35,567 bases of DNA from an uncultured Bacteroidota bacterium (GTDB lineage Bacteria; Bacteroidota; Bacteroidia; Bacteroidales; VadinHA17), in NCBI GenBank assembly GCA_903844815.1, contig CAIMVD010000097.1, forward strand, positions 1-35,567, read 5' to 3'. Position numbers and translations under genes: made by a program. This document shows positions 214 to 30,318 of the stretch, in pieces. Every line of letters begins with the position of its first letter. Positions within the stretch are counted from its first letter, which is position 1. A model generated the notes under the pieces. That model did not search any database. It was not told where the DNA came from and was given only the letters and a program-made list of their open reading frames with translations.

Positions 214-3200
214 ATGAAGAGATTTATTTACATAGTCCTGTCCGTAATCCTTATGATGACCGTCCGGGTTACTGCCCAGACAGGAAACAATTATGCCTCA
301 TCCTCAGTACTTTCATCGGGACAATGGTTCAAAATAGCCGTTACCTCAGACGGAGTTTACAGAATTGATTATTCGAAGATCAGGCAGCTCGGACTTGCAA
401 ATCCTTCGAATCCGAGAATTTTCGGCAACAACCAGGGACAACTTTCATATTATAATAATGATCCGCGACCCGATGACCTGAAGGAGTTACCTGTTTCAAT
501 TACCGGAAGCGATAACTCATTGAATGAAGGAGAATACCTGCTGTTTTACGGTAAGGGCACCAACAGATGGACCTTTAACCCGTTAACAGGCGATTATGAT
601 TTCACCCGTCACAACTATTCCGACACGGCTTTTTACTTTCTCACTTCATCGCCGGTTCCCGGAAAAATGATAACCACTGCAGATGAGCCCGCGCAACAGG
701 AAAATTACTTCTCCAATGTCTCCGATGCATTATATATTCATGAACAGGAAATACAGAATATTATTAAATCGGGCAGGGAATGGTTTCAGCCGGTATCTAC
801 AGTAAAGGGTATTGCCGTAAATCCCGGTTTCACCGATATTTTAACAACTGAAAAACTGAAATGCAGCTACAGGGTAGCGGGAAGGTCCTCAACTACTACC
901 ACTTTCAGTTTATCTGAAGGAGAGACCCGCCGAAAAACCACCCATGTTCAGGCCGTAAACCTCTTTGATGTCACAGGCACTTATGCAAATATTTCTTCCG
1001 ACACTGCATTAACCACCCCCGGATCTTCCACTCCCGCATATGAAATAAGGTTTTCGGGTACAGGGGAAGCTTATGGATGGCTCGACTGGTTAAAACTGCA
1101 GGGAAGAAGGTCGAACAACTTCTCAGGAAGCGCCACGAAGTACTTTGATTCCAAATCGATAGCAGCTGGCAGGATAACTAAATTTTCGATAAAATGCCAG
1201 GCAAATGATCTACTTATCTGGGATATTTCGGATCAGTTCAGCATAAAGCAGATAAAGTATTCAAGAGTTGGTGAAAATATAACTTTCAAATCCGTAACCG
1301 ACAGTCTCAGAACATTCCTGGCTTTCACTGCCGCAAGCGCAACGGTTCCTTTCATTAAAACAACTCCGGCAGCTGCTCAAAACCTTCATGCTTCCGGACC
1401 GGCCGACATGGTTATAGTAACGCATCCCCTGTTCAGGAAACAAGCTGAAAAACTTGCTTCCTTTCACACAAATTATAACGGCCTTATTTCACTAATAGTA
1501 ACTCCTGAACAAATATACAATGAGTTTTCAGGAGGAATTCCGGATATCGCAGCTATCAGGAATTTTCTCAGAATGAAATACATGAAGCAGAAAGGAACTA
1601 CTCATCCGTTAAAATACCTTCTCCTCTTCGGCGACGGCTCCTTTGAAAACAAGACGCCTCCCTCTGACAATCCGAATTCCAACCCGAATTTTATACCCAC
1701 ATACCAGTCGCAGAATTCAAATGTATATGTTACCTCCTTCACCTCAGATGATTTCTATACCTTACTCGAAGACGGAGCAGGGGAATCCGAAGGCGTCGAG
1801 AGTATCGGAGCCGGCCGGCTTCCTGTAACTGACACTACACAGGCTGGAATATTGGTAAGGAAAATAGCCGGTTACCTGAGCCAGTCAAACACCGGCAACT
1901 GGAAAAATGTTATATGCCTTACTGCCGACGATGAAGATGGCAATACTCATATGTCGGATGCTGAAGGCCTGTACAATACTTTAAAATTTAATTCTCCTGC
2001 TTTTAATGTGGAAAAAATCTATCTCGATGCGTACAAGCAGACAACTTCAGCTAACGGACAATCCTATCCTGAAGCAGTAAAAGCAATAAATAACCGCATT
2101 AATGCGGGTTGTCTTATTTTCAACTTCACGGGTCACGGCAGTGAAAGAGGACTGGCTTCCGAAGGAATAGTATCGTCTGATGACATTAATTCCTGGAGAA
2201 ACGGCAACAGGCTTCCGCTTTTTATCACTGCAACGTGTGAATTCAGCCGGTTTGACGATATCGATATGAATATCACAACCAGGGAGATTGCAGGTAAACC
2301 ATCAGCCGGTGAAAAGGTGCTTTTAAATAATAATGGCGGCGGAATTGCACTCATGTCGACGACCAGGATTGTCTATTCTGCTCCAAACTACATGCTGAAC
2401 AGGAATATTATAGCGGCAGCATTTTTGCGCGACTCAGTCGGAAACAGCATGTGCCTTGGTGATATTATAAGGATCGCAAAAAATAATTCCGGAACAGGTA
2501 TAAATAAAAGAAATTTCACTCTCCTCGGCGATCCCGCGGTGAAACTATCCTATCCATGGCATGGCACTGTAGTGACCGATTCAATAAACAATGTACCCGT
2601 AAACAATCCTACCGACAGCCTCAAGGCTCTCTCAAAAGTTACGATCTCGGGTCACATCGGTGATCTTTCCGGAACAATAACTGATTCATTCAACGGAATT
2701 GTATCTCCGGTTGTTTTCGACAAATCATCGAGGGTAAAAACTCTCGCCAACGATGGAGGACAGATAATGGAATTCGATATGAGGAACAATGTTCTTTTCA
2801 GCGGCAAGACAAATGCCAGGAACGGCAGGTTCAGCTTTTCTTTTATCGTTCCCCGAGACATTGATTATAACTTCGGTAACGGAAAAATAAGCTACTATGC
2901 AAACAACGATACTGATGACATGAATGGATATTATTCAGGTATCATTGTCGGAGGATTCACAAACAATGCAGTTAACGATACCTCAGGTCCGGGCATAAGG
3001 CTTTTCATGAACGACACACTGTTCCGAAACGGAGGACTGACCGACCAGAATCCCAAATTGCTGGCAATAATATATGATAACAGCGGAATCAATACCACCG
3101 GTGCGGGCATTGGTCACGACCTGACGGCATTCATCGACAATGACAAAAGGAATTCGTTCATTCTCAATAATTATTTCGAAAATGACTTCGATAATTTCAC

Positions 3201-3636
3201 AAGCGGAAAGTTGTCATATGACCTTTCAGGCCTTGCGTCGGGAAACCATACCCTTACTCTTAAAGCATGGGACTATTACAACAATTCCTCTGAAAAAACA
3301 CTAATGTTCCTTGTCGAAACCGGTGGTAAATTCATACTCAAAAATCTTATTAACTATCCGAATCCCTTCTTTGGAAGCACGTCCATAACTGCAGAGCACA
3401 ACAGCCCCGATATTGAATTTTCGGTTATTATTAATATATACAGCCTTAACGGGAGGATAATAAAGACTATAAAAACAAAAATATTTTCAGAAGGATACAA
3501 CCTCTCTCCGGTGGAGTGGGATGGGAATGATGATGGTGGCAAGAGAGCAGGAAGGGGAATCTATCCGTATTCGGTTACTGTCACCCGCAGCGACGGGGCA
3601 ACTGCCTCAGCTTCGGGAAGAATGATCATTTTGTGA
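214..3636 (+). CDS. porU: Type IX secretion system C-terminal signal peptidase/sortase PorU
   Basis: This is a gingipain-family (C25) cysteine peptidase of 1140 aa. PorU removes the C-terminal signal of T9SS cargo at the cell surface and transfers the cargo to A-LPS. A signal peptide covers about residues 1-21, ending at VTA before QTG. The C25 catalytic region has His641 in FTGHGSERG and Cys675 in ITATCEFSRF, close to the His-Cys spacing in gingipains and PorU. The last ~85 residues carry a YPNPF-type start and an FlgD-like fold resembling T9SS C-terminal domains; PorU is known to keep its own. porV and ispF follow, the same neighbourhood as in Porphyromonas. Length and domain order fit PorU rather than a secreted gingipain, which would have a propeptide and a cleaved C-terminus. 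ATG start supported by the signal peptide and the promoter just upstream. Confidence 0.93.
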   Translation: MKRFIYIVLSVILMMTVRVTAQTGNNYASSSVLSSGQWFKIAVTSDGVYRIDYSKIRQLGLANPSNPRIFGNNQGQLSYYNNDPRPDDLKELPVSITGSDNSLNEGEYLLFYGKGTNRWTFNPLTGDYDFTRHNYSDTAFYFLTSSPVPGKMITTADEPAQQENYFSNVSDALYIHEQEIQNIIKSGREWFQPVSTVKGIAVNPGFTDILTTEKLKCSYRVAGRSSTTTTFSLSEGETRRKTTHVQAVNLFDVTGTYANISSDTALTTPGSSTPAYEIRFSGTGEAYGWLDWLKLQGRRSNNFSGSATKYFDSKSIAAGRITKFSIKCQANDLLIWDISDQFSIKQIKYSRVGENITFKSVTDSLRTFLAFTAASATVPFIKTTPAAAQNLHASGPADMVIVTHPLFRKQAEKLASFHTNYNGLISLIVTPEQIYNEFSGGIPDIAAIRNFLRMKYMKQKGTTHPLKYLLLFGDGSFENKTPPSDNPNSNPNFIPTYQSQNSNVYVTSFTSDDFYTLLEDGAGESEGVESIGAGRLPVTDTTQAGILVRKIAGYLSQSNTGNWKNVICLTADDEDGNTHMSDAEGLYNTLKFNSPAFNVEKIYLDAYKQTTSANGQSYPEAVKAINNRINAGCLIFNFTGHGSERGLASEGIVSSDDINSWRNGNRLPLFITATCEFSRFDDIDMNITTREIAGKPSAGEKVLLNNNGGGIALMSTTRIVYSAPNYMLNRNIIAAAFLRDSVGNSMCLGDIIRIAKNNSGTGINKRNFTLLGDPAVKLSYPWHGTVVTDSINNVPVNNPTDSLKALSKVTISGHIGDLSGTITDSFNGIVSPVVFDKSSRVKTLANDGGQIMEFDMRNNVLFSGKTNARNGRFSFSFIVPRDIDYNFGNGKISYYANNDTDDMNGYYSGIIVGGFTNNAVNDTSGPGIRLFMNDTLFRNGGLTDQNPKLLAIIYDNSGINTTGAGIGHDLTAFIDNDKRNSFILNNYFENDFDNFTSGKLSYDLSGLASGNHTLTLKAWDYYNNSSEKTLMFLVETGGKFILKNLINYPNPFFGSTSITAEHNSPDIEFSVIINIYSLNGRIIKTIKTKIFSEGYNLSPVEWDGNDDGGKRAGRGIYPYSVTVTRSDGATASASGRMIIL

Positions 3637-3669
3637 CCTTCGGACAATATTAAGGCTCAAAAAATGTTA

Positions 3670-3677
3670 TATATTTG
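3670..3677 (+). promoter_or_regulatory. Bacteroidetes -7 promoter element before porV
   Basis: TATATTTG matches TAnnTTTG in the 163-bp porU-porV gap. A transcript starting just after it would have a leader of about 115 nt, which contains a 7-bp hairpin (GAATCAG at 3697-3703 with CTGATTC at 3715-3721). This suggests porV can be transcribed separately from porU. Confidence 0.5.
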
Positions 3678-3799
3678 CAGAGTAGAAGAATCGAATGAAT
3701 CAGAGTAATGAAAGCTGATTCTTAGTAATTTCAGATACCTGAATATAAGACGGTTAAACAAAATTGATTCTTCCTTGAAAATTTAAAATAAATATCATT

Positions 3800-4966
3800 A
3801 TGATTAAAAAGGCAACTCTAGTTTTTTTGTTTATAGCATTAATAGCAGGGAAAGTACAGCTTTTTTCACAACAGAGCAGCGGAGAGCTTAATGCAATACA
3901 GACCGTAGTTCCCTTCCTGACAATAGCCCCCGATTCGAGGGCAGGCGGAATGGGAGATGCCGGTGTTGCAACCGCTCCTGACGTTTACAGCCTTCACTGG
4001 AATCCTGCCAAATTTGCCTTCATCGATGGCTCAGGCGGTGTGGGCATGTCATATGCCCCATGGCTGAGAAACCTGGTGCCAGATATTAATATCGCATATC
4101 TTTCGGGCTACAAACGTATTGACACTAAACAGGTCCTGAGCGCCAGCCTTCTGTATTCTTCACTTGGCGATGTCCCCTTCACCGATGACTTTGGAAATCT
4201 TGAACGCACTTTCAATCCAAACGAATTTGCCCTGGATGCAGCCTATTCAAGGCTATTTACTGATAACCTTTCAGGTGGCGTCGCCTTCCGGTTCATCTAT
4301 TCCAATCTTACAGGAGGATCATATGCAGGAGGTGTTGCAACAAAACCAGGGATCTCTTTTGCAGCCGACATCTCATCATATTATCAGAAAGACATTTCGC
4401 TTTTCAGTAAGGATGCCCGTATGGCTTTCGGACTCAATTTCTCCAATATCGGAAATAAAATGAGCTACTCCGATTCTCAGACTTCCGACTTTATTCCTAT
4501 GAATATGAGGCTCGGAACGGCAGAGACCATATTCCTTGACCAATATAACAGCATTACACTGACAGTAGATATGAACAAACTTCTTGTTCCTACTCCTCCA
4601 ATTTACTCCGGTGCAAATCCCGACAGCATCATTGCCGGCAAGGATCCGAATGTTGCAGTACCTGTTGCCATTTTCCAGTCCTTCTTCGATGCACCCGGCG
4701 GGTTTAAGGAAGAACTCAGGGAGATGACTTTTTCGTTAGGAGCCGAATACTGGTACAATAAGCAGTTTGCAATAAGGGGAGGTTATTTTCACGAAAATGA
4801 AACCAAGGGCAACAGGAAATATTTCACAGCTGGTGCAGGTTTCAGAATGAAAGTATTCACAATTGACTTCTCTTACCTGATGCCTCTTGCTGCCAACCAT
4901 CCGCTGGCCCGCACCCTTAGGTTTTCACTCTCATTCGACTTCAATTCCCTTCAGGCCCGACGATGA
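3800..4966 (+). CDS. porV: Type IX secretion system outer membrane protein PorV (LptO)
   Basis: This 388-aa protein is an FadL-like outer-membrane beta-barrel. In the T9SS, PorV collects cargo from the SprA translocon and delivers it to the PorU attachment complex. The signal peptide covers about residues 1-24. The mature start with LTIAPDSRAGGMGDAG, followed by LHWNPAKFAF, is the hallmark of the PorV/PorQ family. The rest alternates amphipathic strands and ends in an aromatic/hydrophobic final strand (LRFSLSFDFNSL). Position directly after porU identifies it as PorV rather than PorQ. Its stop overlaps the ispF start by four bases (ATGA), implying translational coupling. Confidence 0.93.
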   Translation: MIKKATLVFLFIALIAGKVQLFSQQSSGELNAIQTVVPFLTIAPDSRAGGMGDAGVATAPDVYSLHWNPAKFAFIDGSGGVGMSYAPWLRNLVPDINIAYLSGYKRIDTKQVLSASLLYSSLGDVPFTDDFGNLERTFNPNEFALDAAYSRLFTDNLSGGVAFRFIYSNLTGGSYAGGVATKPGISFAADISSYYQKDISLFSKDARMAFGLNFSNIGNKMSYSDSQTSDFIPMNMRLGTAETIFLDQYNSITLTVDMNKLLVPTPPIYSGANPDSIIAGKDPNVAVPVAIFQSFFDAPGGFKEELREMTFSLGAEYWYNKQFAIRGGYFHENETKGNRKYFTAGAGFRMKVFTIDFSYLMPLAANHPLARTLRFSLSFDFNSLQARR

Positions 4967-9806: not shown

Positions 9807-10778
9807 CTAATCGAACGACTGCCCTGTTTTTGAAGCAATTTCAATTATTCTTTCGTATTCTGCAGGCGTAAGGTCGTTAAAATAATAGTTTACCGGGTCG
9901 ACGTTAAGGCCGTTGATCTTAATTTCGTAATGAAGGTGCGGGGCAAGCGACATCCCGGTACTTCCTACATACGCCACAATATCCCCCCTTTTTACTTTCT
10001 GTCCGGGCCTGACGTTGAATCCCTCAAGGTGCCCGTAGATGCTGACATAACCGAAACCATGATCGATAATCAGGTTATTGCCAAGGCCTCGTTTTGATGA
10101 GTTTACTTCGGCCACAACCCCGTCGCCGGTTGAATATACATCAGTTCCTGAAGGAGCCGTAAAATCCATCCCGTAATGAAACTTAGTAATCTTGTAATAC
10201 GGATGTATTCTTAATCCGTATCCCGAAGCAGTCCTGGTAAGGTCCTTGTTTGAAATCGGAAGTATTGCAGGTATGCAGCGCATCATCAGTTCCTTTGCCG
10301 AAGCCATTAAAATCAGTTCATCGAATGACTTTGTTTGCACATAAACTTTTTTCCGTAGTTTATCAAGCCTGCTTGCAGTTTCAATAACCAGCTTTGAGTT
10401 GTTATATCCTTCCAGATCCTTGTACCTTGTAACACCGCCTACACCGCCTTCTCTAAGGGTTGAGGGAAGCGGCTCAGCCTCAAATATTGTCCTGTAAAGA
10501 TTATCGTCTGTCTTCTGGAGGTCGTCAAGAACCTTTTCAATACTATTCATCTCCCTGTAGATCAGATCGTACTGAATGGTCATCTGGGCAACTTCCCGTT
10601 TCAGGGCTTTTTCTTTTGGTGAATCGAACAGGGAGGCAAAGATAGCCCAGTAGATAACTGCTATTACTACTGAACCCATCAACAGACCCAACAGCCTGAC
10701 CAATATGGCCTTTATCCCGAGGGTTACCTTATCGTAACTCAGGGATTCGTGGTTGAATTTATATTTGATCCTTGGCAT
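9807..10778 (-). CDS. M23-family metallopeptidase (LytM-type), second of a tandem pair
   Basis: This is a predicted envelope peptidoglycan endopeptidase of 323 aa. One transmembrane helix lies near residues 20-42, followed by a helical periplasmic region and a C-terminal LytM domain. The four zinc ligands/catalytic residues are present: His201 and Asp205 (FHYGMDF), His281 and His283 (APHLHYE). The longest frame opens at 10889, but I place the start at the ATG at 10778. From there it aligns end to end with its upstream neighbour (MPRIKYKF versus MARKRKYV) and has the same length, 323 aa. The extra 37 codons overlap the neighbour's 3' end and lack homology to it. It is a tandem duplicate, 85 bp downstream of the paralogue. 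Confidence 0.9.
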   Translation of the reverse strand: MPRIKYKFNHESLSYDKVTLGIKAILVRLLGLLMGSVVIAVIYWAIFASLFDSPKEKALKREVAQMTIQYDLIYREMNSIEKVLDDLQKTDDNLYRTIFEAEPLPSTLREGGVGGVTRYKDLEGYNNSKLVIETASRLDKLRKKVYVQTKSFDELILMASAKELMMRCIPAILPISNKDLTRTASGYGLRIHPYYKITKFHYGMDFTAPSGTDVYSTGDGVVAEVNSSKRGLGNNLIIDHGFGYVSIYGHLEGFNVRPGQKVKRGDIVAYVGSTGMSLAPHLHYEIKINGLNVDPVNYYFNDLTPAEYERIIEIASKTGQSFD

Positions 10779-10863
10779 GGTCTGTAAAGATAACCATTTC
10801 TTAATCACAAAAAAATGCATCTCTAAGGGAAGTACTTTGATTATACGAAAACTGAAGCAGAAT

Positions 10864-11835
10864 TTACCTGAATTTTGATTTTGACTCAAAAGCCTGAATC
10901 ATTTCATTGTACTCTTCGTTGGAAAGGTCGTTATTGAAGAAATTGACCGGATTCTTATGCTGTCCAAATTGTTCAATCTGATAGTGAAGGTGTGGCCCGG
11001 AAGACAAACCGGTGCTTCCGCTTAGTCCAATCATATCGCCTCTTTTGACATTCTGGCCAACCTGTACTTTTATCTTGCTCAGATGGCCGTAGGTTGACTG
11101 CATGCCGAAACCATGGTCAATTACAATTACATTTCCGAACCCATTGCTTCCTCCCCAGCCTGCTTCAATGATTTTTCCCCCACCCGTAGCATATACGTTT
11201 GTTCCCGGCGGAACAGGAAAATCCTGGCCCCAGTGCATCCTGGCAGCTCCGTTAACCGGGTGATGCTCCCTGAAATGAAAACCGTCACCAAGCCTGAATT
11301 TCACATCGACCGGACTAATCACAGGCTGATGCTCCATCTCAGTCTTCCACTCTTCAGCCCTGTCGGCAATAGCATAAAATGACTCCTTTTGAACAGTCGC
11401 AAGGTTCTTTACTTCTTCAATCCGGGACCTGACTTCGATAAGAACATCCGAATTCTGGTAACCTGTAAGGTCTGAGAACCTGTCAACTCCTCCATAACCT
11501 GCCTGCCTGTACGAATCAGGAATGCTGTCCATGTCAAGTATTGGCCGGTATCGTTTGTCATCTGATTGCCTCAGACTATTAATTGAGGCTACGGAATTGT
11601 CAAGTTGCCTGCTTACGAGGGAAATCTGAAGCTTCTTGTTTTCAATCTGCTGGTTGAGAAGATGCTCTTTAGGAGATCCGAAAAGATTCTCGAATACTGC
11701 ACCGTAGAAAATGGCAAGAAGGATCGAAACCCCTAAACCAAGCAGTGTCCGCAACAGAACTGCTTTGAACGGGAGCCTGACCTGCTTGTATTGCAAATCA
11801 GTCAAATCAAGAACGTATTTTCTCTTTCGTGCCAA
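10864..11835 (-). CDS. M23-family metallopeptidase (LytM-type), first of a tandem pair
   Basis: This 323-aa protein has the same architecture as its downstream neighbour: a transmembrane helix at about residues 22-46, a coiled helical periplasmic segment, then a LytM domain. His201 and Asp205 (MHWGQDF) and His282 and His284 (GPHLHYQ) are intact, so it should be catalytically active on peptidoglycan cross-links. The start is TTG (11833-11835). No in-frame ATG lies just upstream, and alignment with the paralogue supports this position. It is divergent from alaS over a 115-bp gap. The related M23 proteins may have split roles (elongation, division) or one may regulate another hydrolase. Confidence 0.9.
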   Translation of the reverse strand: MARKRKYVLDLTDLQYKQVRLPFKAVLLRTLLGLGVSILLAIFYGAVFENLFGSPKEHLLNQQIENKKLQISLVSRQLDNSVASINSLRQSDDKRYRPILDMDSIPDSYRQAGYGGVDRFSDLTGYQNSDVLIEVRSRIEEVKNLATVQKESFYAIADRAEEWKTEMEHQPVISPVDVKFRLGDGFHFREHHPVNGAARMHWGQDFPVPPGTNVYATGGGKIIEAGWGGSNGFGNVIVIDHGFGMQSTYGHLSKIKVQVGQNVKRGDMIGLSGSTGLSSGPHLHYQIEQFGQHKNPVNFFNNDLSNEEYNEMIQAFESKSKFR

Positions 11836-19755: not shown

Positions 19756-21066
19756 ATGGCAACAATGAACATTGTATTGCCCGCGATGGGTGAGGGAGTG
19801 ATTGAAGCAACAATAAACAAATGGCTTGTCAGCGAAGGCACTCTGGTCAACGAAGAGGACCCTCTTGTTGAAGTGGCAACCGATAAAGTCGATTCGGAAG
19901 TACCTTCCCCTTCATCGGGAACCATTATCTCTATAGTCGCCGTTGAGGGTTCTGTAGCAAAAGTGGGAGATATAATTGCCATAATAGATGACGGACTGAC
20001 CCGTTCAGAGGATGAAGATGTTAAGGTTGATTTGGAGGTAAAAAGAATAAGAGAAACAATAGCAGAAATAAAGACCGGGAGGAAGGACGAGGAATCAGCC
20101 ACAAAGGAAATGAAAAGCAGGACTCCTTCAGGGAAATTCATCTCCCCGCTGGTTAGAAATATTTCGCTGCACGAAGGGATCAGCTATGATGAGCTCGACA
20201 GGATTGACGGCACCGGCATGGATGGCAGGATCACAAGGGACGACATTATTAAGATACTTGAAGAAAATAACAAAAAAAGAGAAGCTGCAGCTGCAACAAT
20301 CACCCCTGCGGGAGAAATAAAGGCTGAGCCTTTAATTAAAAGTTCTGATGAAGATGAGATTATTCCTATGGACAGGGTGAGGAAACTCATTGCTGAACAT
20401 ATGGTAATGTCTAAAAGAACCTCCCCTCACGTAACCTCATTTATTGATGCTGATGTCACAAGGCTCGTGAACTGGAGAAACTCCGTAAAGCAGAAGTACT
20501 TTGACCTTGAAGGGCAGAAGCTTACACTTACACCTGTTTTTATTGATGCTGCAGCCAGGGCGCTTCATGCTTTTCCCATGGTCAACATCTCAGTCGATGG
20601 ATATAATATAATAAAGAAAAAAAATATCAATATCGGGATGGCTACGGCACTTCCCGACGGGAACCTGATTGTACCTGTAATAAAAAATGCTTCCGACAAA
20701 AGCCTTACCGGACTTTCAAAAGCAGTAAACGATCTTGCCGACAGGGCCAGAAGGAACAAACTAAAACCTGATGAAATTACTGGAGGCACTTTCACAATTA
20801 CCAATTTCGGGAGTTATAACAACCTTTCAGGCACACCAATCATAAATCAGCCTCAGGCGGCGATACTCGGCATCGGAGCCGTACGAAAAACGCCTGCAGT
20901 AATCGAAACTCCCGATGGCGACATGATAGCCGTACGACAAATTGTTATTCTTTCATTAAGCTACGACCACAGGGTAATCGACGGAGCCCTTGCCGGAAAA
21001 TTCCTCAATAAAATCAAAGAAATACTCGAAAATTATACTGCCGGGCTAATATGGGGAAAGCTATGA
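19756..21066 (+). CDS. 2-oxoacid dehydrogenase complex E2 (dihydrolipoamide acyltransferase)
   Basis: E2 forms the core of pyruvate or branched-chain 2-oxoacid dehydrogenase complexes and carries acyl groups on lipoate. The 436-aa protein has one lipoyl domain (residues 1-75, lipoylated Lys44 in ATDKVDSEV). A linker leads to a peripheral-subunit-binding domain (about 115-155, with GRITRDDIIKIL). The catalytic domain runs to the end and contains His405 and Asp409 in DHRVIDG. A single lipoyl domain and the sequence style favour branched-chain or generic acyl specificity, but this is not certain. No E1 or E3 gene is adjacent, so the complex partners must be elsewhere. Confidence 0.9.
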   Translation: MATMNIVLPAMGEGVIEATINKWLVSEGTLVNEEDPLVEVATDKVDSEVPSPSSGTIISIVAVEGSVAKVGDIIAIIDDGLTRSEDEDVKVDLEVKRIRETIAEIKTGRKDEESATKEMKSRTPSGKFISPLVRNISLHEGISYDELDRIDGTGMDGRITRDDIIKILEENNKKREAAAATITPAGEIKAEPLIKSSDEDEIIPMDRVRKLIAEHMVMSKRTSPHVTSFIDADVTRLVNWRNSVKQKYFDLEGQKLTLTPVFIDAAARALHAFPMVNISVDGYNIIKKKNINIGMATALPDGNLIVPVIKNASDKSLTGLSKAVNDLADRARRNKLKPDEITGGTFTITNFGSYNNLSGTPIINQPQAAILGIGAVRKTPAVIETPDGDMIAVRQIVILSLSYDHRVIDGALAGKFLNKIKEILENYTAGLIWGKL

Positions 21067-21261: not shown

Positions 21262-24123
21262 ATGAATAGGTTAATCCTGTTGACGTTAATGCTTTTTAGC
21301 TTAATAAATTTTAAAGTAAGCTCCCAGTCGATCTCGGAGCAAAAAAAGAACTTTTATTATGCCGAAAGCCGCATCTTGTATGAAGATTTCAGGGAAGCTC
21401 TGCCCCAGTATGAGGCCCTGCTAAAATTATACCCCGATAATTCAAACTATAAATACAGGATCGGACAGTGTTTCCTGAACATTCCGGGCGAAAAAGAGAG
21501 ATCGATAAAATTTCTCGAGGATGCTGTAAAAAATATAAATCCTGATTACAATGAGGGCCGATTTAATGAAAAAGGGGCACCCTATGATGCTTTATATTTC
21601 CTGGCCAATGCTTACAGGATAAATAACCAGCTTGATAAGGCTATTGATATCTATAAGATTTTCAAGAACAAAATCAACAATAAAATCTACGACACAGCTA
21701 TCGTAAACCTCCAGATAAGAACTTGCTTCAATGCCAAGGAGATGATGCGGTCACCTGTTTACCTGAAATCGGACAACCTCGGGAAACCAATTAACCAGAA
21801 AGACGGGGAGTTTTACCCTGTGGTATCCGAAAATGAGGAGATGATCGTTTTTGGCAGGAGCGAGGCCTTTTACGATGCCATTCTCTATTCGGTAAAACAA
21901 AACGGCGTTTGGTCGGAACCTCAGAATATGAATGAGATACTTAAGATCGACAGGGATATCTACCCCACATCCCTCTCTTCTGACGGAAAAGATCTCTACC
22001 TCTACAGTTCGGGTGACCTCGACGGTACAATTTTCACGTCTCACTTCGAAAACAACACCTGGTCGCCCCTTGTAAAGCTAAATGACAATATAAACACGAA
22101 ATACTGGGAATCGCACGCTACGATCTCACATGACAACAAAAAACTATACTTCACCAGCAACCGGAAAGGCGGATTCGGCGGCCTTGACATTTATGCCTCA
22201 TCCCGTGACAATAACGGCGACTGGGGACCGGCTCTAAATCTGGGATCTGTTGTAAACACACCTTATAATGAAGAATCACCATTTCTTAGCGATGATGACG
22301 AAACTTTGTTTTTCAGCTCAAGGGGTCATTATAACATAGGAGGTTACGATATCTTTTATTCATCTGTCAAGTCCGGGTCGGAATGGTCGATACCGCTTAA
22401 CGCAGGGTTTCCCCTGAACACAACCGATGATGATGTCTTCTACAAACCGCTCAAGGATGGCAATACCGGCTACATGGCCCTCTTCAATCCAAATGGTTAC
22501 GGCAAGCAGGATATCTACCACATTGAAATGTTCTCTGACGAACATCCCAGGAAATTTTTTATTAACGGAAATGTCAAAGTCCAGGACCTTCGCGCGGGTA
22601 TAATTGACAGTGTGAAGATAATTGTTACAAATACTCAAAATCCCGGACAAAAATTCATTGTCTATTCAAATCCAAAATCAGGCGAGTTTGGCTTCGAGGT
22701 TCCCCAGGGAAACTACAATATTGCATTTGAAGCCGACGGAGGAAAGAAGACATCCAAAAACCTTGATCTGCCTCTGAAATATCCATCTGACAGCATCTCG
22801 CTGGCCGGAACCATTTTACCGAAATCTGACAATATTGCTGAACTGTCAATCAGGGGAAGCAATAATTTAACTGTATCAAAAGGCGATCCGATTGACATTC
22901 CTCTTCTTGTTGAACCAAAATCGGTTCTTACTGTAGAGCGCTGGTCGGGCAACAAACTTTTATCGACGAAACAGTTTTCGATAGATGATTCAACCTTTAC
23001 ATACAATATTGTTCCTGAAATGGGAGAGAACAGGGTTACCTTCCGGCTTACCGATAAATTCAACAATACTGCCACAGCAGAGCTGTTCATCAACAGGGAA
23101 AAGATTTTTTCTGAACTTCCGTTCATAAAAGCTGACACAAATGGAAAATTCACGGGTGCTCAACTGGCTGCATTTATGGAGATCCTTAAGAAACGTGCCA
23201 ACAGTGAAATGCTTAATGTCATTAATTCAGCTGACACTACAGGTAAGAAATTCAGCAACCCCGATGATCTTCTTGCCCTTTTAAGAACAGAGGCACGACG
23301 CCAGAATATTAACCCCGAAGAAGTAGATAAACTTGCACTCGAGGTTGCCGTGAAGGACAACATTCTGACCCAGGCAGCCGTCGACCTCCTGGCCAATTAT
23401 GCCGACGGCGAGCTGAAACAACTGCTTTCTGATCTCGACATATACAAGGAAGGACTTAAAACATGGACCGATTTGCTAGATTACATTGCCTCACACTCTT
23501 CGGGAAGAATTAACCCGAGGGATCTTGATGATCTTGCCACTGCAATCTTAACAGGTACCGACAAGTCGATAAATATTATAAGAGAAAAGGTACTTGCCTA
23601 CGGCCAGAACCATAAGGATGGAAATCTGATAAGAGAATCCGTTTCAGCAACAGATCTTGAACGGTTAAAGATGAAGGAACAGTGGCTTCGCTCCTTCTAT
23701 AATGAAGCTTTAAGAGTGGGATTGACACCTGAACAGCTTGCCCGGATGCTTGCTGCAATCAGTTCTCTTCCCGGCGCTGAAGCTGATAAATACCTTCAGG
23801 ACATGATAGAGCTGTCAGCTGAGCCGATTACTTCAACCCTCAGGTCGCTTGAACTTGGGAAGGAAAAGATAAAAACGCCGTCTGACCTCATAAGATTCAT
23901 GATCGCCAATACCGATAAGGAAATATATCCGGAAGATGGTGTTTTCAGAACTATCGCAAACATGATTGTTGCCAATAATGTACCAAATGATCTTCTGTCG
24001 GGAATGTTCCGTGGAGGAATCGGCATCAGGACAATGATATCGGCGATTACCGCAGGAATAGCAATAATATTCTTCTTTTTCTTCATGCTCTGGAGAAGAA
24101 GAAAAAAAGATAAAAAAGGATGA
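21262..24123 (+). CDS. TPR / PD40 beta-propeller protein with C-terminal membrane anchor (cluster member 1)
   Basis: This 953-aa exported protein has a signal peptide at residues 1-21. A TPR-like helical region covers about 25-165 (YRIGQCFLNIPGEKERSIKF). A WD40-like/PD40 propeller covers about 170-430, with His285 in the WESH motif and FTSNRKGGFGGLDIYAS. A carboxypeptidase-regulatory-like beta domain (about 435-520) and a second beta domain (about 525-625) follow. Then comes a helical region of ~270 residues that I do not recognise. A hydrophobic helix at about 925-944 is followed by the basic tail RRRKKDKKG. A signal peptide plus a C-terminal stop-transfer helix implies a periplasmic protein anchored in the inner membrane. 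It is the first of four tandem paralogues. Function unknown; a role in an envelope complex is inferred. Confidence 0.85.
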   Translation: MNRLILLTLMLFSLINFKVSSQSISEQKKNFYYAESRILYEDFREALPQYEALLKLYPDNSNYKYRIGQCFLNIPGEKERSIKFLEDAVKNINPDYNEGRFNEKGAPYDALYFLANAYRINNQLDKAIDIYKIFKNKINNKIYDTAIVNLQIRTCFNAKEMMRSPVYLKSDNLGKPINQKDGEFYPVVSENEEMIVFGRSEAFYDAILYSVKQNGVWSEPQNMNEILKIDRDIYPTSLSSDGKDLYLYSSGDLDGTIFTSHFENNTWSPLVKLNDNINTKYWESHATISHDNKKLYFTSNRKGGFGGLDIYASSRDNNGDWGPALNLGSVVNTPYNEESPFLSDDDETLFFSSRGHYNIGGYDIFYSSVKSGSEWSIPLNAGFPLNTTDDDVFYKPLKDGNTGYMALFNPNGYGKQDIYHIEMFSDEHPRKFFINGNVKVQDLRAGIIDSVKIIVTNTQNPGQKFIVYSNPKSGEFGFEVPQGNYNIAFEADGGKKTSKNLDLPLKYPSDSISLAGTILPKSDNIAELSIRGSNNLTVSKGDPIDIPLLVEPKSVLTVERWSGNKLLSTKQFSIDDSTFTYNIVPEMGENRVTFRLTDKFNNTATAELFINREKIFSELPFIKADTNGKFTGAQLAAFMEILKKRANSEMLNVINSADTTGKKFSNPDDLLALLRTEARRQNINPEEVDKLALEVAVKDNILTQAAVDLLANYADGELKQLLSDLDIYKEGLKTWTDLLDYIASHSSGRINPRDLDDLATAILTGTDKSINIIREKVLAYGQNHKDGNLIRESVSATDLERLKMKEQWLRSFYNEALRVGLTPEQLARMLAAISSLPGAEADKYLQDMIELSAEPITSTLRSLELGKEKIKTPSDLIRFMIANTDKEIYPEDGVFRTIANMIVANNVPNDLLSGMFRGGIGIRTMISAITAGIAIIFFFFFMLWRRRKKDKKG

Positions 24124-24128
24124 TCTGG

Positions 24129-24152
24129 AATGACCGGTTTTTGCCGGTCATT
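24129..24152 (+). terminator. Hairpin after cluster member 1
   Basis: AATGACCGG and CCGGTCATT form a perfect 9-bp stem with a 6-nt loop, five bases after the stop codon. No T-run follows, so it may be a terminator, an attenuator or a 3'-end stabiliser. Confidence 0.55.
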
Positions 24153-24179
24153 GCCGTGAAATAAGTAGATGATTAATAA

Positions 24180-24207
24180 TACATTTGCATTTATTTTAAT
24201 AAATTTG
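24180..24207 (+). promoter_or_regulatory. Two candidate -7 elements before cluster member 2
   Basis: TACATTTG (24180-24187) and TAAATTTG (24200-24207) both match TAnnTTTG, ending 39 and 19 bases before the ATG at 24227. Together with the hairpin just upstream they suggest independent transcription of the second gene. Confidence 0.45.
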
Positions 24208-24226
24208 TCAGCCAACAAAATTGATT

Positions 24227-25501
24227 ATGATTAAAAGGACTCTTGGCTTTCTTGTTATGATGGCATTTCTTGTCCCTGTCACCGCTCAGGATCAAACTGC
24301 TATGGAAGACATGTTCCTTGAAGCTGAATACTTTTTCATGAAGGAAGATTATCAGGATGCGCTCATAAACTATCTGCAGCTTCATGACAAAATGCCTGAT
24401 AATCAAAATCTTGATTTCCGTATCGGAGTCTGTTACCTGAATACTCCGGGGAAAAAGAATCTGTCTGTCGGGTATCTTGAGGCTGCATCAAAGAACATTT
24501 CAGCAAAACATAAGGAAGGAACCTTATCACAGGTTTCCGCCCCCTACGAGGCGCTTTATGAACTGGGAAAAGCTTATCGCATCAATTATATGTTCGACAA
24601 GGCGAAAGATTCATTTAAGAAGTACCTTGGCACACTGCTGACCGATGACAGGGAAAATGTAAGTTTCGTAAACCATGAAATAGCTGTCTGCGACATGGCT
24701 CAGGAACTGATGTCGAAACCTGTTTCATTTACCGACGAGAATACAGGTGAGATTTTTAATGATGAAAAGGCGAACTTCAACCCACTTATCTCAGCCGACG
24801 GCAAATCATTTGCATTTACGGTTTCGCTGAAATTCTACGATGCCGTGATGGTCTCTAAACTCATAAACGGCAAATGGGCTCCGCCTGTAAACATTACGCC
24901 CGAGCTGCAATCCGATGGTGACTTTTACATTTCATGCCTGTCAGCCGACGGAAAGCAACTCTTCCTCGCAAGGGATGATAATTTCAACAGCGACATCTAC
25001 GTAAGTTCAAACAATGGTACGGGCTGGTCGAAAGTCGTGAAACTGAATAAAAATATAAATACCAAATACTGGGAAAGTCACGGTTTCTTATCAGAATCGG
25101 GCAACCAGCTTATATTTGCATCTGACAAGCCAGGCGGTTTCGGCGGGCTCGACCTTTATGTTTCTAATAAATTAAACGGAGAATGGGGACCAGCGGTTAA
25201 CCTTGGTCCTGAGGTAAACACTGAATTCAATGAAGACAGACCCTTTCTCATAAACCAGGGGAAAACACTTTTTTTTAGCTCCCAGGGCCATGAGAACATT
25301 GGAGGATATGATCTTTTCAGGTCTGACCTTCAGTCAAATGGCTTATGGAATAAACCTGCCAATCTCGGATATCCCATAAACACACCCGACGACAATTTAT
25401 ATATTATGCCATCTGGTGACGGCAAAACAGGATATTATTCTGTTTACAAGGAATCTGGCGGTTTCGGCAAAGAAGATATTTACAAAATCACATTTAAGTA
25501 A
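24227..25501 (+). CDS. TPR / PD40 beta-propeller protein, minimal form (cluster member 2)
   Basis: This 424-aa exported protein holds only the core shared by the cluster. It has a signal peptide (residues 1-20, ending PVTAQ), a TPR-like region at about 22-165 (FRIGVCYLNTPGKKNLSVGY), and a PD40 propeller at about 170-424. The propeller includes NTKYWESHGFLS with His285, and FASDKPGGFGGLDLYVS. It stops right after the last blade with no anchor or peptidoglycan-binding domain. The open frame extends two codons upstream to a TTG at 24221; the ATG at 24227 gives a normal signal peptide start. It is probably a soluble periplasmic partner of its larger paralogues. Confidence 0.85.
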   Translation: MIKRTLGFLVMMAFLVPVTAQDQTAMEDMFLEAEYFFMKEDYQDALINYLQLHDKMPDNQNLDFRIGVCYLNTPGKKNLSVGYLEAASKNISAKHKEGTLSQVSAPYEALYELGKAYRINYMFDKAKDSFKKYLGTLLTDDRENVSFVNHEIAVCDMAQELMSKPVSFTDENTGEIFNDEKANFNPLISADGKSFAFTVSLKFYDAVMVSKLINGKWAPPVNITPELQSDGDFYISCLSADGKQLFLARDDNFNSDIYVSSNNGTGWSKVVKLNKNINTKYWESHGFLSESGNQLIFASDKPGGFGGLDLYVSNKLNGEWGPAVNLGPEVNTEFNEDRPFLINQGKTLFFSSQGHENIGGYDLFRSDLQSNGLWNKPANLGYPINTPDDNLYIMPSGDGKTGYYSVYKESGGFGKEDIYKITFK

Positions 25502-25540
25502 AATATTTTATAAAAGTACCATTACAAAATGAAATATTAA

Positions 25541-25548
25541 TATTTTTG
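25541..25548 (+). promoter_or_regulatory. -7 element immediately before cluster member 3
   Basis: TATTTTTG matches TAnnTTTG and ends six bases before the ATG at 25555. If used, transcription would begin within a few bases of the start codon, giving a leaderless or nearly leaderless mRNA. It also overlaps the alternative TTG start at 25546, arguing against that start. Confidence 0.5.
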
Positions 25549-25554
25549 CAGCTG

Positions 25555-27258
25555 ATGGCAAATCTAAAAAAACAGGTCAGATGGTTTCATGCAATGCTTA
25601 TATGCATTGCATTGATTCCTTCTGTTTCTTATTCTCAGTCGAAAGACCAGAAAAAAGTCTTTTCCCAGGCTGAGACCTATTTTCTGTATGAAGACTATGA
25701 TCTGGCTGTAAAACTCTATTTAATACTAGGGTTACCAGATAATTACAATATAAAGTATAAAATAGGAACCTGTTACCTGAACTTACCGGGAGAAAAGGAA
25801 AAATCGATTGACTATCTGGAGGATGCAGTTAAAAATGTAAGTTTTGACTCTAAAACCGGGTCGTTTAGCGAAAAAAGAGCACCTATAGACGCCTGTTTTT
25901 TTCTAGCCAAAGCCTATATGATAAATAATGAACCCGAAAAAGGGCTCATTACACTTAATTCACTTAAGCAGCTTACCAAAGACTCGAAATCAGCGAAAGG
26001 GGTAAGAAATCTGGATTATATCGACCAGCAGATAGAAGCATGCAATAACCTTATTCTATTAAAGAAGACACCTGTAGCTTTTAAAAAAGAAATCGTTAGC
26101 AGTAATTTCAGTCACGGATCAGCTAATTTTAATCCTGCAGTAAGTTTCGATGGCAAAACTCTGGTTTTCACTGAAAAAAACGGAGGCAAAAACATCATTC
26201 TGATGTCAAAAAAAGGGGAGAACGGAAATTGGAAGCCACCTGTCGATATCACCGGTCAGCTGAAGGCAGGCATTGATTGTTCCTCCTGCGGTTTGAATAA
26301 TGACGGCACCGAACTGTTTCTTTATAAGACCGGCAACTTTGACGGGTCTATCTTCTCATCTAATTTCATAAACGGGAAATGGACCCCATTGAAAGCCCTT
26401 AACGGCAAAATTAACTCCAAGTACTACGAATCACACGCTTCCATTTCAGCCGACGGGAAAAAACTATATTTCGCAAGTAACAGGAACGGCGGGATGGGAA
26501 ACCTCGATATCTATGTCTCTGAAAAAAACAAGGACGGTGCATGGGGCGATGCAGTTAACCTCGGACCCTCAGTCAACACACCTTTCAACGAAGATACTCC
26601 GTTCGTCACCAAAAACGATTCCGTGCTCTATTTCTCATCCGAAGGACACAGGACAATCGGTGGATTTGATATTTTTAAATGCACCTTAATAAATGGCAAC
26701 TGGAGTGAACCGGCAAATCTCGGATTTCCCTTTAACACACCCGATGACGATAAGTTTTTCCAGCCTGCCAACGATGGCAATAATTGTTATTATTCTTATT
26801 CCGGAGATTCAGGGAAGGAAGAGATTTATTACTTTACTTTTTTAAGTCCGGTTAAACCAGAATCGCCCGTTGAAATTAAGAAAGAAACTGTTGCTGCTTT
26901 AGTTCCGGCTGTTGAGGAAGCAAAGAAAGAGGTTATTAATTCAGCTCCTGCACCATTACCTCCGGCTGAATCAATCAGCAACGAAAACAACCTGAGAGTA
27001 GTCGATCCCTCATTAAATGTAAAAGATTCAGAAATATTATATTTTACTGTCCAGCTTATGGCACTTCACAAGCCAGTCGACATCAGCTATTTTAAAAATG
27101 TCAGTAATGTAAAAGTTCTATATAACGATTCCGACAAGTTCTTCAGGTATACAACCGGAAAGTTTCAGACAAAAGAAGAAGCGGAATCGCTTAAGTTTGA
27201 ATTAGTCCGTAAAGGATATCCAAGTGAAATATTTGTAAAGAAGGTAATAAAACAATAA
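25555..27258 (+). CDS. TPR / PD40 beta-propeller protein with C-terminal SPOR domain (cluster member 3)
   Basis: This 567-aa exported protein has a signal peptide at about residues 1-28 (ending SVSYSQ). A TPR-like region (about 32-175, KYKIGTCYLNLPGEKEKSIDY) is followed by a PD40 propeller (about 180-435, NSKYYESHASIS with His294, FASNRNGGMGNLDIYVS). A Pro/Glu-rich linker of ~55 residues leads to a SPOR-like domain in the last ~75 residues (YFTVQLMALHKPVDISYF, then GKFQTKEEAESLKFELVRKG). SPOR domains bind glycan strands lacking stem peptides, so this member probably touches peptidoglycan. The frame extends to a TTG at 25546; the ATG is preferred. The next gene follows after 11 bp. Confidence 0.85.
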   Translation: MANLKKQVRWFHAMLICIALIPSVSYSQSKDQKKVFSQAETYFLYEDYDLAVKLYLILGLPDNYNIKYKIGTCYLNLPGEKEKSIDYLEDAVKNVSFDSKTGSFSEKRAPIDACFFLAKAYMINNEPEKGLITLNSLKQLTKDSKSAKGVRNLDYIDQQIEACNNLILLKKTPVAFKKEIVSSNFSHGSANFNPAVSFDGKTLVFTEKNGGKNIILMSKKGENGNWKPPVDITGQLKAGIDCSSCGLNNDGTELFLYKTGNFDGSIFSSNFINGKWTPLKALNGKINSKYYESHASISADGKKLYFASNRNGGMGNLDIYVSEKNKDGAWGDAVNLGPSVNTPFNEDTPFVTKNDSVLYFSSEGHRTIGGFDIFKCTLINGNWSEPANLGFPFNTPDDDKFFQPANDGNNCYYSYSGDSGKEEIYYFTFLSPVKPESPVEIKKETVAALVPAVEEAKKEVINSAPAPLPPAESISNENNLRVVDPSLNVKDSEILYFTVQLMALHKPVDISYFKNVSNVKVLYNDSDKFFRYTTGKFQTKEEAESLKFELVRKGYPSEIFVKKVIKQ

Positions 27259-27269
27259 ATATTAAAATT

Positions 27270-29762
27270 ATGAAGAAGATTTGCATTCTTACTCTTCTGT
27301 TTTTAGGAGTTAATTCCCTGTTTGCACAGGAGATTTCCCGGAAAGATTTTGTCAGGGAAATGGAGAAGGCTGATTCCTATTTTTACTACGGCTCTAACTA
27401 TGCATTAGCGGCAGATATCTATCAGAAGTTATATAAAGATTTTCCTGACAATGCCAACCTGGCCGCCAAGCTTGGTATTTGTTACCTGAATATGGACGGC
27501 AAAAAAACCGAATCACTAAACCTTCTGAAGAAAGCCATTAAGAATGCTGTCGCAACAGATGCTGAATACTCCGAAACAGGAGATAAAGCTCCGCTCGACT
27601 CGTGGCTCTACCTTGCATTGGCCTTTCATCAGAGCGATAGCCTGAATAAAGCAATCACTTATTATAATGAGGCTAAAAAAAGAATTGCCTCAGATGACCC
27701 TTCCCAGGAAGAATATATCGACAACCAGATAAGGGACTGCAAGTATGCTATCCAGCAGATGAAAAAGCCGCTGACAATCATTCCAACCCTTTTCACTCCC
27801 TGGCTTAAAGATTATCCGGGCGCCTGCAATCCTGTCATTTCAAAGAATGACTCAGTTTTTATCTTTACACAGAAAACAGGAGAAAAGACAAAAATATTCT
27901 GTTCTTACAATAACGGAACCTGGCAAAAACCAGAAGATATTACTCCTAATCTGGGCTCTTTCGATATGTTGTACTCAAATTCCATCTCAGGCGATGGAAA
28001 GAGCCTGATCCTGTTCATGGATGACGGCGAAGACGGAAACCTTTACCACAGCCATAGAAGTGATGCTACCTGGTCGAAGATTAAAGGCGTCGGAGCAAAT
28101 ATAAATACAATTTACTGGGAATCGCACGGCTTCATAACCCCCGATGGACGTACCTTATATGTTGCATCAAACAGGAAAGGTGGTCAGGGAGGATCCGACA
28201 TCTGGGTTTCCCAACTGGATCAGAGTGGAAACTGGCAGAAACCCATCAATTGCGGAGATGTGCTTAATACCACTTATGATGAGACAACTCCTTATTATGA
28301 CCCTGAAACAAGGGCTCTTCTGTTCAGCTCAAAAGGCTTCATAAGCATGGGTAGTGCCGACATTTTCAGGTCAGTAAACAAAAACGGAATCTGGACAACG
28401 CCCGTTGGAATTCCATATGCGTTCAACAATACTTCTGAAAATGAATTCTTTATAATGAACAACAAAGGACCGGGATTCATTACGAGTATGTTTGATTCTA
28501 AATCGCGCGTAAGGAATATCTATGCCGTTGTAGCTGAAGATCCTGCCGATAAGGTTACAATAGCACAGGGAACCATTTCCCTGAAGGACGGAGCCGCTGT
28601 CGATCCCAAACAGGTTCAGATTCAGCTATCCGACGGAAAACCCGGAAGCAGGATTAAGAACCTGTCGCTCCTGGATGCATCTTCATTCAAATTTGAAGTT
28701 AGACCAGGCGATTATCAGCTTCTTGTGAGCCATTCAGGCTACAAAACAGATACTATAAACCTTAATATTCCTCTCTATTTCAGTGGTAATTTAATATCGG
28801 TCAGTGCAGAGCTCTCGCCGGAAAAAACTTCAGGCGGAGATTTCCTCTCAATCAAAAACATCCTTTTTGAATACAACAGCTATGCCCTCGATGATCAGGC
28901 TAAAATAAGTCTCGAGATTATAAAATCGCTGATGAACAGTAAGCCTGACGTTAAAATCGAAGTTGCAGGCTATACCGATTCAAAAGGAAACAGCCAGTAC
29001 AACAGGATCCTCGCCGACAAAAGAGCACAGAGTACAATTGATTATCTCACTTCCTCTGGAATTAACCCCCAAAGACTCCTTAAAAAGGCCTATGGCGGAA
29101 CTGATTTCGTTGCCGAAAATACGAACTCTGACGGTTCCGATAATCCTGAAGGCAGAAAATATAACAGAAGAGTAATTTTTGGGATATTTGACCCTAATAC
29201 AGGAATAACAATCGCACAGGAAGGTTATACTCCTGACCATCTTCGCCAGGCTTCTTCAACAAAATACAGTATTGTCCTTCTCAAGACAGCCAAAAGAATA
29301 CCGGGAGACTATTTCAGCAGCCTGAAAATAAGCAGCCTGCATTTTATAAAATCTGTTAAGTCCGATTCAGTTTCACTTTATATTCTTGGAGTTTTCAAAA
29401 ATAAGACTGATGCCGTTAAATATCTTGATTATGTACAGAATAATGGATTCAAGGATGCCTATATCATCGACCAGAATCAGGTAAATAAAGATGTAAAGGC
29501 CAACATGAATCCGGATCCCGGACAAGCCGATCTTGCGCCTAAGAATCCATATACTATTCAGCTGCTGGCAACACGCCAGCCTGTCGATAAAAAACTTTTC
29601 AAAGATATCTCAGGATTATCTGAGGTTACTGGCAAGGACGGATTTATCAGGTATCTCTGTGGAAATTTTGTAAGCGTCGAGGAGGCTAAGAACGCACTCA
29701 CTCCCATCGTTAATTCTGGTTTTCCTGATGCTTTTATTGTAGAAACAAGTTCAATAAAATAA
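27270..29762 (+). CDS. PorE-like TPR / PD40 / OmpA protein with two SPOR-like repeats (cluster member 4)
   Basis: This 830-aa exported protein has a signal peptide at residues 1-19. A TPR-like region covers about 25-165 and a PD40 propeller about 170-420 (NTIYWESHGFIT, His286). A carboxypeptidase-regulatory-like domain (about 428-518) is followed by an OmpA C-terminal domain (about 524-640). Asp570 and Arg585 in the OmpA domain keep the spacing of the diaminopimelate-binding pair. Two SPOR-like repeats close the protein (about 663-740 and 759-830). Without the SPOR part this is the architecture of PorE, the T9SS periplasmic protein that links the secretion complex to peptidoglycan. It may be PorE itself or a paralogue; I cannot tell without a phylogeny. 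It lies 11 bp after member 3, likely in one operon. Confidence 0.85.
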   Translation: MKKICILTLLFLGVNSLFAQEISRKDFVREMEKADSYFYYGSNYALAADIYQKLYKDFPDNANLAAKLGICYLNMDGKKTESLNLLKKAIKNAVATDAEYSETGDKAPLDSWLYLALAFHQSDSLNKAITYYNEAKKRIASDDPSQEEYIDNQIRDCKYAIQQMKKPLTIIPTLFTPWLKDYPGACNPVISKNDSVFIFTQKTGEKTKIFCSYNNGTWQKPEDITPNLGSFDMLYSNSISGDGKSLILFMDDGEDGNLYHSHRSDATWSKIKGVGANINTIYWESHGFITPDGRTLYVASNRKGGQGGSDIWVSQLDQSGNWQKPINCGDVLNTTYDETTPYYDPETRALLFSSKGFISMGSADIFRSVNKNGIWTTPVGIPYAFNNTSENEFFIMNNKGPGFITSMFDSKSRVRNIYAVVAEDPADKVTIAQGTISLKDGAAVDPKQVQIQLSDGKPGSRIKNLSLLDASSFKFEVRPGDYQLLVSHSGYKTDTINLNIPLYFSGNLISVSAELSPEKTSGGDFLSIKNILFEYNSYALDDQAKISLEIIKSLMNSKPDVKIEVAGYTDSKGNSQYNRILADKRAQSTIDYLTSSGINPQRLLKKAYGGTDFVAENTNSDGSDNPEGRKYNRRVIFGIFDPNTGITIAQEGYTPDHLRQASSTKYSIVLLKTAKRIPGDYFSSLKISSLHFIKSVKSDSVSLYILGVFKNKTDAVKYLDYVQNNGFKDAYIIDQNQVNKDVKANMNPDPGQADLAPKNPYTIQLLATRQPVDKKLFKDISGLSEVTGKDGFIRYLCGNFVSVEEAKNALTPIVNSGFPDAFIVETSSIK

Positions 29763-29787: not shown

Positions 29788-30318
29788 ATGAAATATAAAG
29801 AAATAAGACTTAGGGCTCTGGAACCTGAAGATCTGGAACTTCTTTATATTTGGGAGAATAATGAATCTTTCTGGATAATAAGTAATACAATTTCTCCTTT
29901 TTCGAGGTTTACTATTAAACAATATCTGGAACATTCGCATAAAAGCATCTATGAAACGGGACAGCTGAGGCTCATGATAGATCTCATCGCCGATAAGTCC
30001 GCTATTGGAACCATCGATATCTTTGACTTTGACCAGTACCACAGAAGAGCCGGACTGGGAATTCTGGTCGCAGATCCTGTATTCAGGAGGAAAGGTTATG
30101 CCTCAATGGCGTTGAGTTGCCTTACCGAATACTGCTTCAGGACTCTTCATCTGCATCAGTTATTTTGCAATATCCTTTCGAATAATTCCGAGAGTATGGA
30201 ACTCTTTAAAAAACAAGGTTTCACAGAATGTGGCATAAAGAGAGAATGGGTCAGGGGCCCCGATGGTTACCTCGATGAACATATTTTTCAGTTGCTTAAT
30301 CCCGATCCAAAATCCTAA
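29788..30318 (+). CDS. GNAT-family N-acetyltransferase
   Basis: This 176-aa cytosolic protein has a GNAT fold. The acetyl-CoA-binding motif A is LGILVADPVFRRKGYASMAL, and motif B follows (LFCNILSNNSESMELFKKQGF). It resembles the RimJ/RimL/SpeG group of amino- or polyamine-acetyltransferases. The substrate is unknown. It begins 25 bp after the PD40 cluster and may be carried on the same transcript; a functional link is not implied. Confidence 0.88.
   Translation: MKYKEIRLRALEPEDLELLYIWENNESFWIISNTISPFSRFTIKQYLEHSHKSIYETGQLRLMIDLIADKSAIGTIDIFDFDQYHRRAGLGILVADPVFRRKGYASMALSCLTEYCFRTLHLHQLFCNILSNNSESMELFKKQGFTECGIKREWVRGPDGYLDEHIFQLLNPDPKS

Follow-up and report, generated by a model that had tools for sequence, protein, structure and literature searches.

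A stretch of 35,567 nucleotides from an uncultured Bacteroidota bacterium of the Bacteroidales lineage VadinHA17 (assembly GCA_903844815.1, contig CAIMVD010000097.1, positions 1 to 35,567), here called the window, carries on its plus strand an array of four genes, A to D (21262-29762, open reading frame positions). Their products share a core, composed of a tetratricopeptide repeat (TPR) region and a PD40 propeller, and end in four different ways:

21262..24123, plus strand: gene A, 953 amino acids (aa); signal peptide, TPR-PD40 core, regulatory-like and Ig-like domains, helical repeat stalk, C-terminal transmembrane (TM) helix, basic tail
24227..25501, plus strand: gene B, 424 aa from ATG; signal peptide and TPR-PD40 core only; TTG start possible at 24221
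25555..27258, plus strand: gene C, 567 aa from ATG; signal peptide, TPR-PD40 core, SPOR-like domain; TTG start possible at 25546
27270..29762, plus strand: gene D, 830 aa; signal peptide, TPR-PD40 core, weak regulatory-like domain, OmpA domain, two SPOR-like domains

The genes are separated by 103 bp (A/B), 53 bp (B/C) and 11 bp (C/D). Over approximately 420 residues, the cores of A, B and C are 42-44% identical to one another and that of D is 31-33% identical to each of them; since the pairwise blastp E-values are 9e-110 (A-B), 1e-109 (A-C), 9e-104 (B-C) and 8e-69 to 5e-60 (D against the others), the likeness is not due to chance. PD40 exceeds the Pfam cut-off in all four proteins. The TPR model reaches it in A alone, but the region nevertheless aligns across all four. 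The analysis confirms the original prediction, which had been made from the DNA letters and had described four tandem genes with a signal peptide, a TPR-like region and a PD40 propeller, with an anchor in A, no addition in B, one SPOR domain in C and OmpA plus two SPOR domains in D. Its shared signature YxIGxCYLNxPGxK holds for A, B and C (YRIGQCFLNIPGEK, FRIGVCYLNTPGKK and YKIGTCYLNLPGEK) and not for D, which departs from the pattern (AKLGICYLNMDGKK). A simple pattern, as opposed to a trained predictor, found no lipobox-like motif in residues 9-40 of A-D and such a motif in just five of 172 array members.

The most elaborate ending is that of A:

22567..22791, plus strand: carboxypeptidase-regulatory-like domain (weak), residues ~436-510; Pfam E 0.012, below cut-off; the blastp alignment with D reaches A residue 521
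22861..23091, plus strand: Ig-like domain (weak), residues 534-610; Pfam Big_9 E 0.058
23209..23331, plus strand: helical repeat, residues 650-690; local repeat hidden Markov model (HMM) E 2e-8
23404..23529, plus strand: helical repeat, residues 715-756; local repeat HMM E 3e-14
23827..23949, plus strand: helical repeat, residues 856-896; local repeat HMM E 1e-10
24034..24120, plus strand: TM helix (residues 925-943) with the tail RRRKKDKKG, residues 925-953; hydropathy 2.5 over 19 residues

The helical region of A consists of a tandem repeat of approximately 66-68 aa, which is newly recognised here; the original prediction likewise did not mention the weak regulatory-like and Ig-like matches of A. 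When A-type helical regions were compared with themselves, offsets of 66-68 and their multiples stood far above shuffled sequences in three relatives; in the A protein of the window, only offset 138 beat the best of 60 shuffles (49 vs 40). The local repeat model finds three copies in this A, five in several relatives, 8-10 in proteins of 1484-1489 aa and up to 11 in a wider protein set, and none in the short (~700 aa) A forms of the genus. TM-type proteins range from 598 to 1570 aa, the longest being the A-type homologue P0001, whose nine copies lie in three blocks approximately 310 aa apart, so that an entire block has been duplicated in tandem. Among the members of 80 named loci, which were chosen by likeness to A, the repeat was found in 63 of 78 TM-type members as opposed to one of 189 others, this sole exception being an A truncated by a contig end. 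Among the matches listed (65 + 5) from protein searches with the repeat region, 67 of 70 proteins carry PD40, and the remaining three begin inside the propeller. It has no match in Pfam, and sequence searches of the Protein Data Bank gave no useful match for its fold (the profile hit TPR designs only, the repeat region one chance-like TetR at E 0.009).

A comparison of 100 distinct TM-type proteins showed that 4-17 residues follow the C-terminal helix, that lysines and arginines are more numerous after the helix than before it in 93 of them, and that just 14 have D, E, K, R, H, N or Q within the helix. The TM-type call is a crude hydropathy threshold, below which a 703-aa member with the same ending, from genome G150, scored. 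Helix and basic tail fit a passive inner-membrane anchor with the C-terminus in the cytoplasm, in line with the earlier proposal that the core of A touches the inner membrane, the topology being inferred from the sequence.

The endings of C and D are of another kind:

27037..27240, plus strand: SPOR-like domain of C, residues 495-562; local model; blastp to the last domain of D, E 1e-8; no Pfam match
28863..29135, plus strand: OmpA domain of D, residues 532-622, with Asp570, Asn578 and Arg585; Pfam E 3e-16
29262..29468, plus strand: first SPOR-like stretch of D, residues 665-733; local HMM only
29550..29741, plus strand: second SPOR-like domain of D, residues ~761-824; Pfam E 0.003, below cut-off; local HMM; Pfam passes in one orthologue

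Asp570, Asn578 and Arg585, which only D among the four proteins possesses, correspond in identity and spacing to Asp576, Asn584 and Arg591 of PorE (PG1058), whose side chains touch peptidoglycan in the crystal structure, according to the published work on PorE, its partner PorP, the pg1058 mutant and CHU_0125 (PMC5891637, PMC5053529, PMC9143113 and PMC7192894, cited here and below as a set). In addition, D has a weak match to the regulatory-like domain (Pfam E 0.048). For the SPOR-like domains, the local model was seeded with these same domains of C and D, and its E-values for the two proteins therefore are not independent. With the Pfam model PF05036 (cut-off 21 bits), D scores 18.4 bits and C has no match. 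Among ten relatives, one D orthologue passes (23.1), two C-type proteins stay below the cut-off and seven proteins, five of them among the seven C-type relatives, have no match; a match at E <= 0.01 was obtained for five of 62 array members. Of the two members that had been expected to bind peptidoglycan, D is thus backed by the three contact residues of PorE, and C would be a probable binder, in both cases as judged from sequence. The C protein of the window (567 aa) is shorter than most C proteins of the genus (642-727 aa), the stretch between propeller and SPOR-like domain being reduced.

Within the genus, 19 genomes were searched. The order A-B-C-D, whose conservation the original prediction had proposed to check, is kept on one contig in ten of them (G000, G001, G002, G003, G006, G009, G011, G012, G013 and G015) and is also present in G005, where A is truncated by the contig end. 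B is broken in G003 (locus L043), with a stop inside the gene while A, C and D stay open. The further genomes carry A-B-C (G017, and G018, where the array is cut by the contig end), A-C-D (G010, G014), A-C (G004, G016) or C-D (G007), and G008 has no strong match to the array; no other order than A-B-C-D was seen among the 19. Most orthologues of B in the genus have the same length of 424 aa.

Beyond the genus, a strong A-like match (E <= 1e-55) was present in 111 of 247 genomes sampled from the order, and in seven of 395 genomes of a phylum sample, including the genome studied here. Regions were fetched from 40 genomes outside the genus, picked among the strong A-like matches. Most genomes are metagenome-assembled, and the counts that follow rest on simple thresholds and on loci picked for likeness to A. 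By the hydropathy threshold, 25 of the 40 genomes, from 13 families, have a TM-anchored member; of two further ones, G150 looks TM-anchored and G056 is cut. For 11 of the 13 families, the TM-anchored protein is part of an array of two to five members, and an OmpA or SPOR-like member belongs to 18 of the 23 uncut TM-type arrays that lie outside the genus. For three genomes, such a protein was found on another contig, namely one with OmpA and two SPOR-like domains in G042 and G252 and a SPOR-like protein in G055. In the 80 named loci, all 50 uncut TM-type arrays include an OmpA or SPOR-like member (37 with OmpA, 13 with SPOR-like domains alone) and 44 include a bare core member. The two sets are not independent, because their handles overlap (G006, for example, is L102). 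Several arrays of other families (L083, L084, L087, L089, L096) lack a recognised TM member and contain proteins with OmpA and two to four SPOR-like domains.

The history of the paralogues was followed in a careful tree of 78 cores (support given as bootstrap/SH-aLRT, the latter an approximate likelihood-ratio test) and in a quick tree. The careful tree separates the PorE side from the array proteins (100/99) and unites the TM-type cores of nine families in one clade (99/98). The bare B of the genus clusters with proteins from other families that carry OmpA (support 81/80, and 93 in the quick tree), for which reason B probably has lost an OmpA domain. C and a SPOR-like protein of G230 fall together (100/100). 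D, on a long branch, has no firm place and shifts its position between the two trees. A single clade of all TM-type members was not borne out, as the TM-type cores of G115, G216 and G156 are placed apart, beside C in the careful tree (weakly supported, 70/65) and together with D in the quick one. Six proteins fetched as dispersed hits (L029, L030, L031, L193, L194 and L196) also fall among the array proteins. Because A- and B-type cores form clades across families, their duplications predate the families. The original prediction of a local duplication followed by specialisation thus holds with respect to the shared core and its specialised ends, but a recent duplication is ruled out for A and B. 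In the trees, the proteins closest to A, B and C come from arrays of other genomes, and not from unrelated loci.

Since related families keep similar mixes of ends, the array looks like a membrane-to-wall scaffold of a type not yet described; a literature search, which covered few subscription journals, found no paper on this array. We tentatively favour, at slightly short of an even chance, a passive periplasmic scaffold that would join the inner membrane to peptidoglycan in a manner resembling Tol-Pal or PorE. In such a scaffold, A would place a TPR-propeller head on a helical-repeat stalk anchored in the inner membrane, its basic tail being too short for a signalling domain, and D, and probably C, would hold like heads on peptidoglycan through their OmpA and SPOR-like domains. 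B, a head alone, might act as an adaptor or as a competitor for the same partners. The heads may meet one another or a common outer-membrane client, as the head region of PorE is thought to meet PorP, and the assembly would serve to hold the envelope together, perhaps at sites of division, to which SPOR domains bind. The reach of the bridge could be altered as repeats are gained or lost.

A membrane-anchored long helical member is the layout of TolA, and the array also resembles Tol-Pal in having a TolB-like propeller, a Pal-like OmpA domain and CpoB-type TPRs. It differs by the C-terminal position of the anchor, by the lack of a conserved polar residue in the helix and by the fact that no motor genes were seen beside it. 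The TolB matches of the window proteins are weak (B: E 7e-6). In the genomes of 31 relatives, TolB exceeded the model cut-off in none, with weaker matches in 30; the same cut-off was exceeded in two of 14 control genomes. A 2025 analysis (PMC12204202) failed to identify tol-pal loci in Bacteroidetes, expected further systems, and proposed PorE as a CpoB-TolB-Pal-like fusion that tethers the outer membrane. The passive scaffold is favoured because the array supplies what the PorE proposal does not contain, a like head fixed to the inner membrane. A further point of comparison is CHU_0125 of Cytophaga hutchinsonii (family NF053607), which combines TPR, PD40 and an OmpA_C-like domain in one protein and whose deletion, according to the set cited above, impairs outer-membrane integrity, a role in which has been proposed for it. 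There it is called a Pal-like lipoprotein, and it stands as a single protein, not as part of an array; none of the window proteins passes the cut-off of its family of 620 bits (A 161, B 138, C 125, D 177).

Several observations weigh against such a scaffold. In 13 of the 40 genomes outside the genus, the fetched region holds arrays or single genes but no recognised TM member, and in two others (G082, G167) a TM-type member is not accompanied by an OmpA or SPOR-like partner in the set of members examined. Independent support for the SPOR-like domain of C and one of those of D, which lack Pfam support, is modest. According to the same papers, genes called tolA and tolB exist alongside CHU_0125 in C. 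hutchinsonii, where their deletion is without effect on cellulose digestion, and a pg1058 mutant has normal antimicrobial sensitivity; given these tolA and tolB genes, a simple story of Tol-Pal replacement may not hold throughout the phylum. The genes, the common core, the repeats, the hydrophobic helix and its basic tail, the contact residues of D and the conservation of the set are seen in the sequences, from which membrane topology, periplasmic location, peptidoglycan binding, contacts between heads and the role in cohesion are inferred.

The best-placed alternative is that A-D are four independent envelope proteins, each with its own ligands, which share a locus through old tandem duplication and vertical inheritance and form no joint assembly. 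We regard this as rather unlikely. The surroundings of the array include two neighbouring genes and a hairpin behind A:

19756..21066, plus strand: E2 acyltransferase gene; precedes the array in many relatives too
24129..24152, plus strand: perfect 9-bp hairpin directly 3' of the A stop, possible terminator or attenuator; one match, 0.01 expected by chance
29788..30318, plus strand: GNAT acetyltransferase gene, 25 bp downstream of the array; follows it in many relatives too

Both flanking genes, E2 upstream and GNAT downstream, are present in at least one genome of each of nine families. The conserved neighbours are housekeeping genes (E2, GNAT, RecR, HolA, PNP and others; the GT2 label of one of them stems from single-linkage grouping and may be mixed), and they therefore hint at no clear function of the array. 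As this entire neighbourhood is conserved as well, clustering by itself proves no joint function. The absence of B or D from several genomes of the genus, the splitting of the set over contigs in G042, G252 and G055, and the possible terminator 3' of A likewise suit independent proteins. However, the combination of a TM-anchored and a wall-binding member persists in the three genomes with a split locus, and it endures even as the wall-binding domain shifts from one paralogue to another: OmpA sits on B-type proteins of other families and is absent from the B of the genus. CCGG-type hairpins also lie 3' of A in four of 18 other loci (L039, L041, L043, L044), in two of them with a changed and still paired base pair. 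Elsewhere in the window, two adjoining M23 peptidase genes occupy 9807-11835 on the minus strand.

A less probable alternative gives the array an accessory role in the type IX secretion system (T9SS), as a PorE-like set which would attach T9SS parts, or surface anchors of the PorP type, to peptidoglycan, while A would connect these to the inner-membrane motor. The array core is the PorE core, and D likewise has TPR, propeller, a weakly matched regulatory-like domain and OmpA in the order found in PorE, together with its three peptidoglycan-contact residues; A, B and C have no OmpA. Yet the array itself is not PorE: its proteins score 103 (A), 131 (B), 111 (C) and 183 (D) against the PorE family NF052230, the cut-off of which is 600 bits, and the genome encodes its true PorE (L181, 679 bits) on another contig. 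The SPOR-like tails, the TM-anchored stalk and the lack of a lipobox-like motif are further differences. A PorU-like C25 peptidase and PorV are encoded in the same window (214-4966), and PorV precedes the array by 13-50 kb, on the same contig and strand, in 12 of 22 chosen genomes; it is on another contig in the other ten, the intervening genes are mostly housekeeping genes, and the proximity is a loose linkage among these. SprA was found in 233 of the 247 genomes of the order, in 109 of 111 with a strong A-like match as opposed to 124 of 136 without one (Fisher p 0.024), the two SprA-less genomes with such a match being approximately 82% complete. From this distribution, the array may depend on the presence of the T9SS, but the T9SS gets by without the array, since SprA is kept in those 124 of 136 genomes; a core role in the T9SS is rejected on these grounds. 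Given the many SprA-positive genomes that have no strong A-like match, the low scores and the separate PorE, the T9SS role that had been suggested by analogy with PorE is not supported. In the published work, PorE binds the barrel protein PorP, and the PorE-PorP-type surface anchors of F. johnsoniae, likewise PorE-like multi-copy proteins, adjoin porP-like genes; a Pfam scan of 24 proteins of the window gave no PorP.

Known sorting signals generally have a helix and a basic tail at the C-terminus. A cleaved signal of this kind, which would leave A outside the inner membrane, shares this layout, and rhomboid protease genes lie with HolA, PNP and others in the conserved downstream block of other families (L060:501-1121 and like places), but such a signal is very improbable, because no short motif is conserved before the helix in the aligned proteins and no rhomboid is labelled near the array in loci of the genus.

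Returning to the passive scaffold between inner membrane and wall, a bolder form of it, which we consider doubtful, would make the array the order's own trans-envelope system, doing the work of Tol-Pal without TolA through paralogous TolB-like heads on different anchors, with a stalk whose length from membrane to wall would be tuned, like an adjustable ruler, by the number of repeats, from none detected to approximately eleven. For the question of how Bacteroidota connect inner membrane, wall and outer membrane, an array with membrane-anchored and wall-binding members offers a concrete candidate. The widely varying number of repeats in the stalk lets one ask whether the length of such a bridge must match the periplasm.

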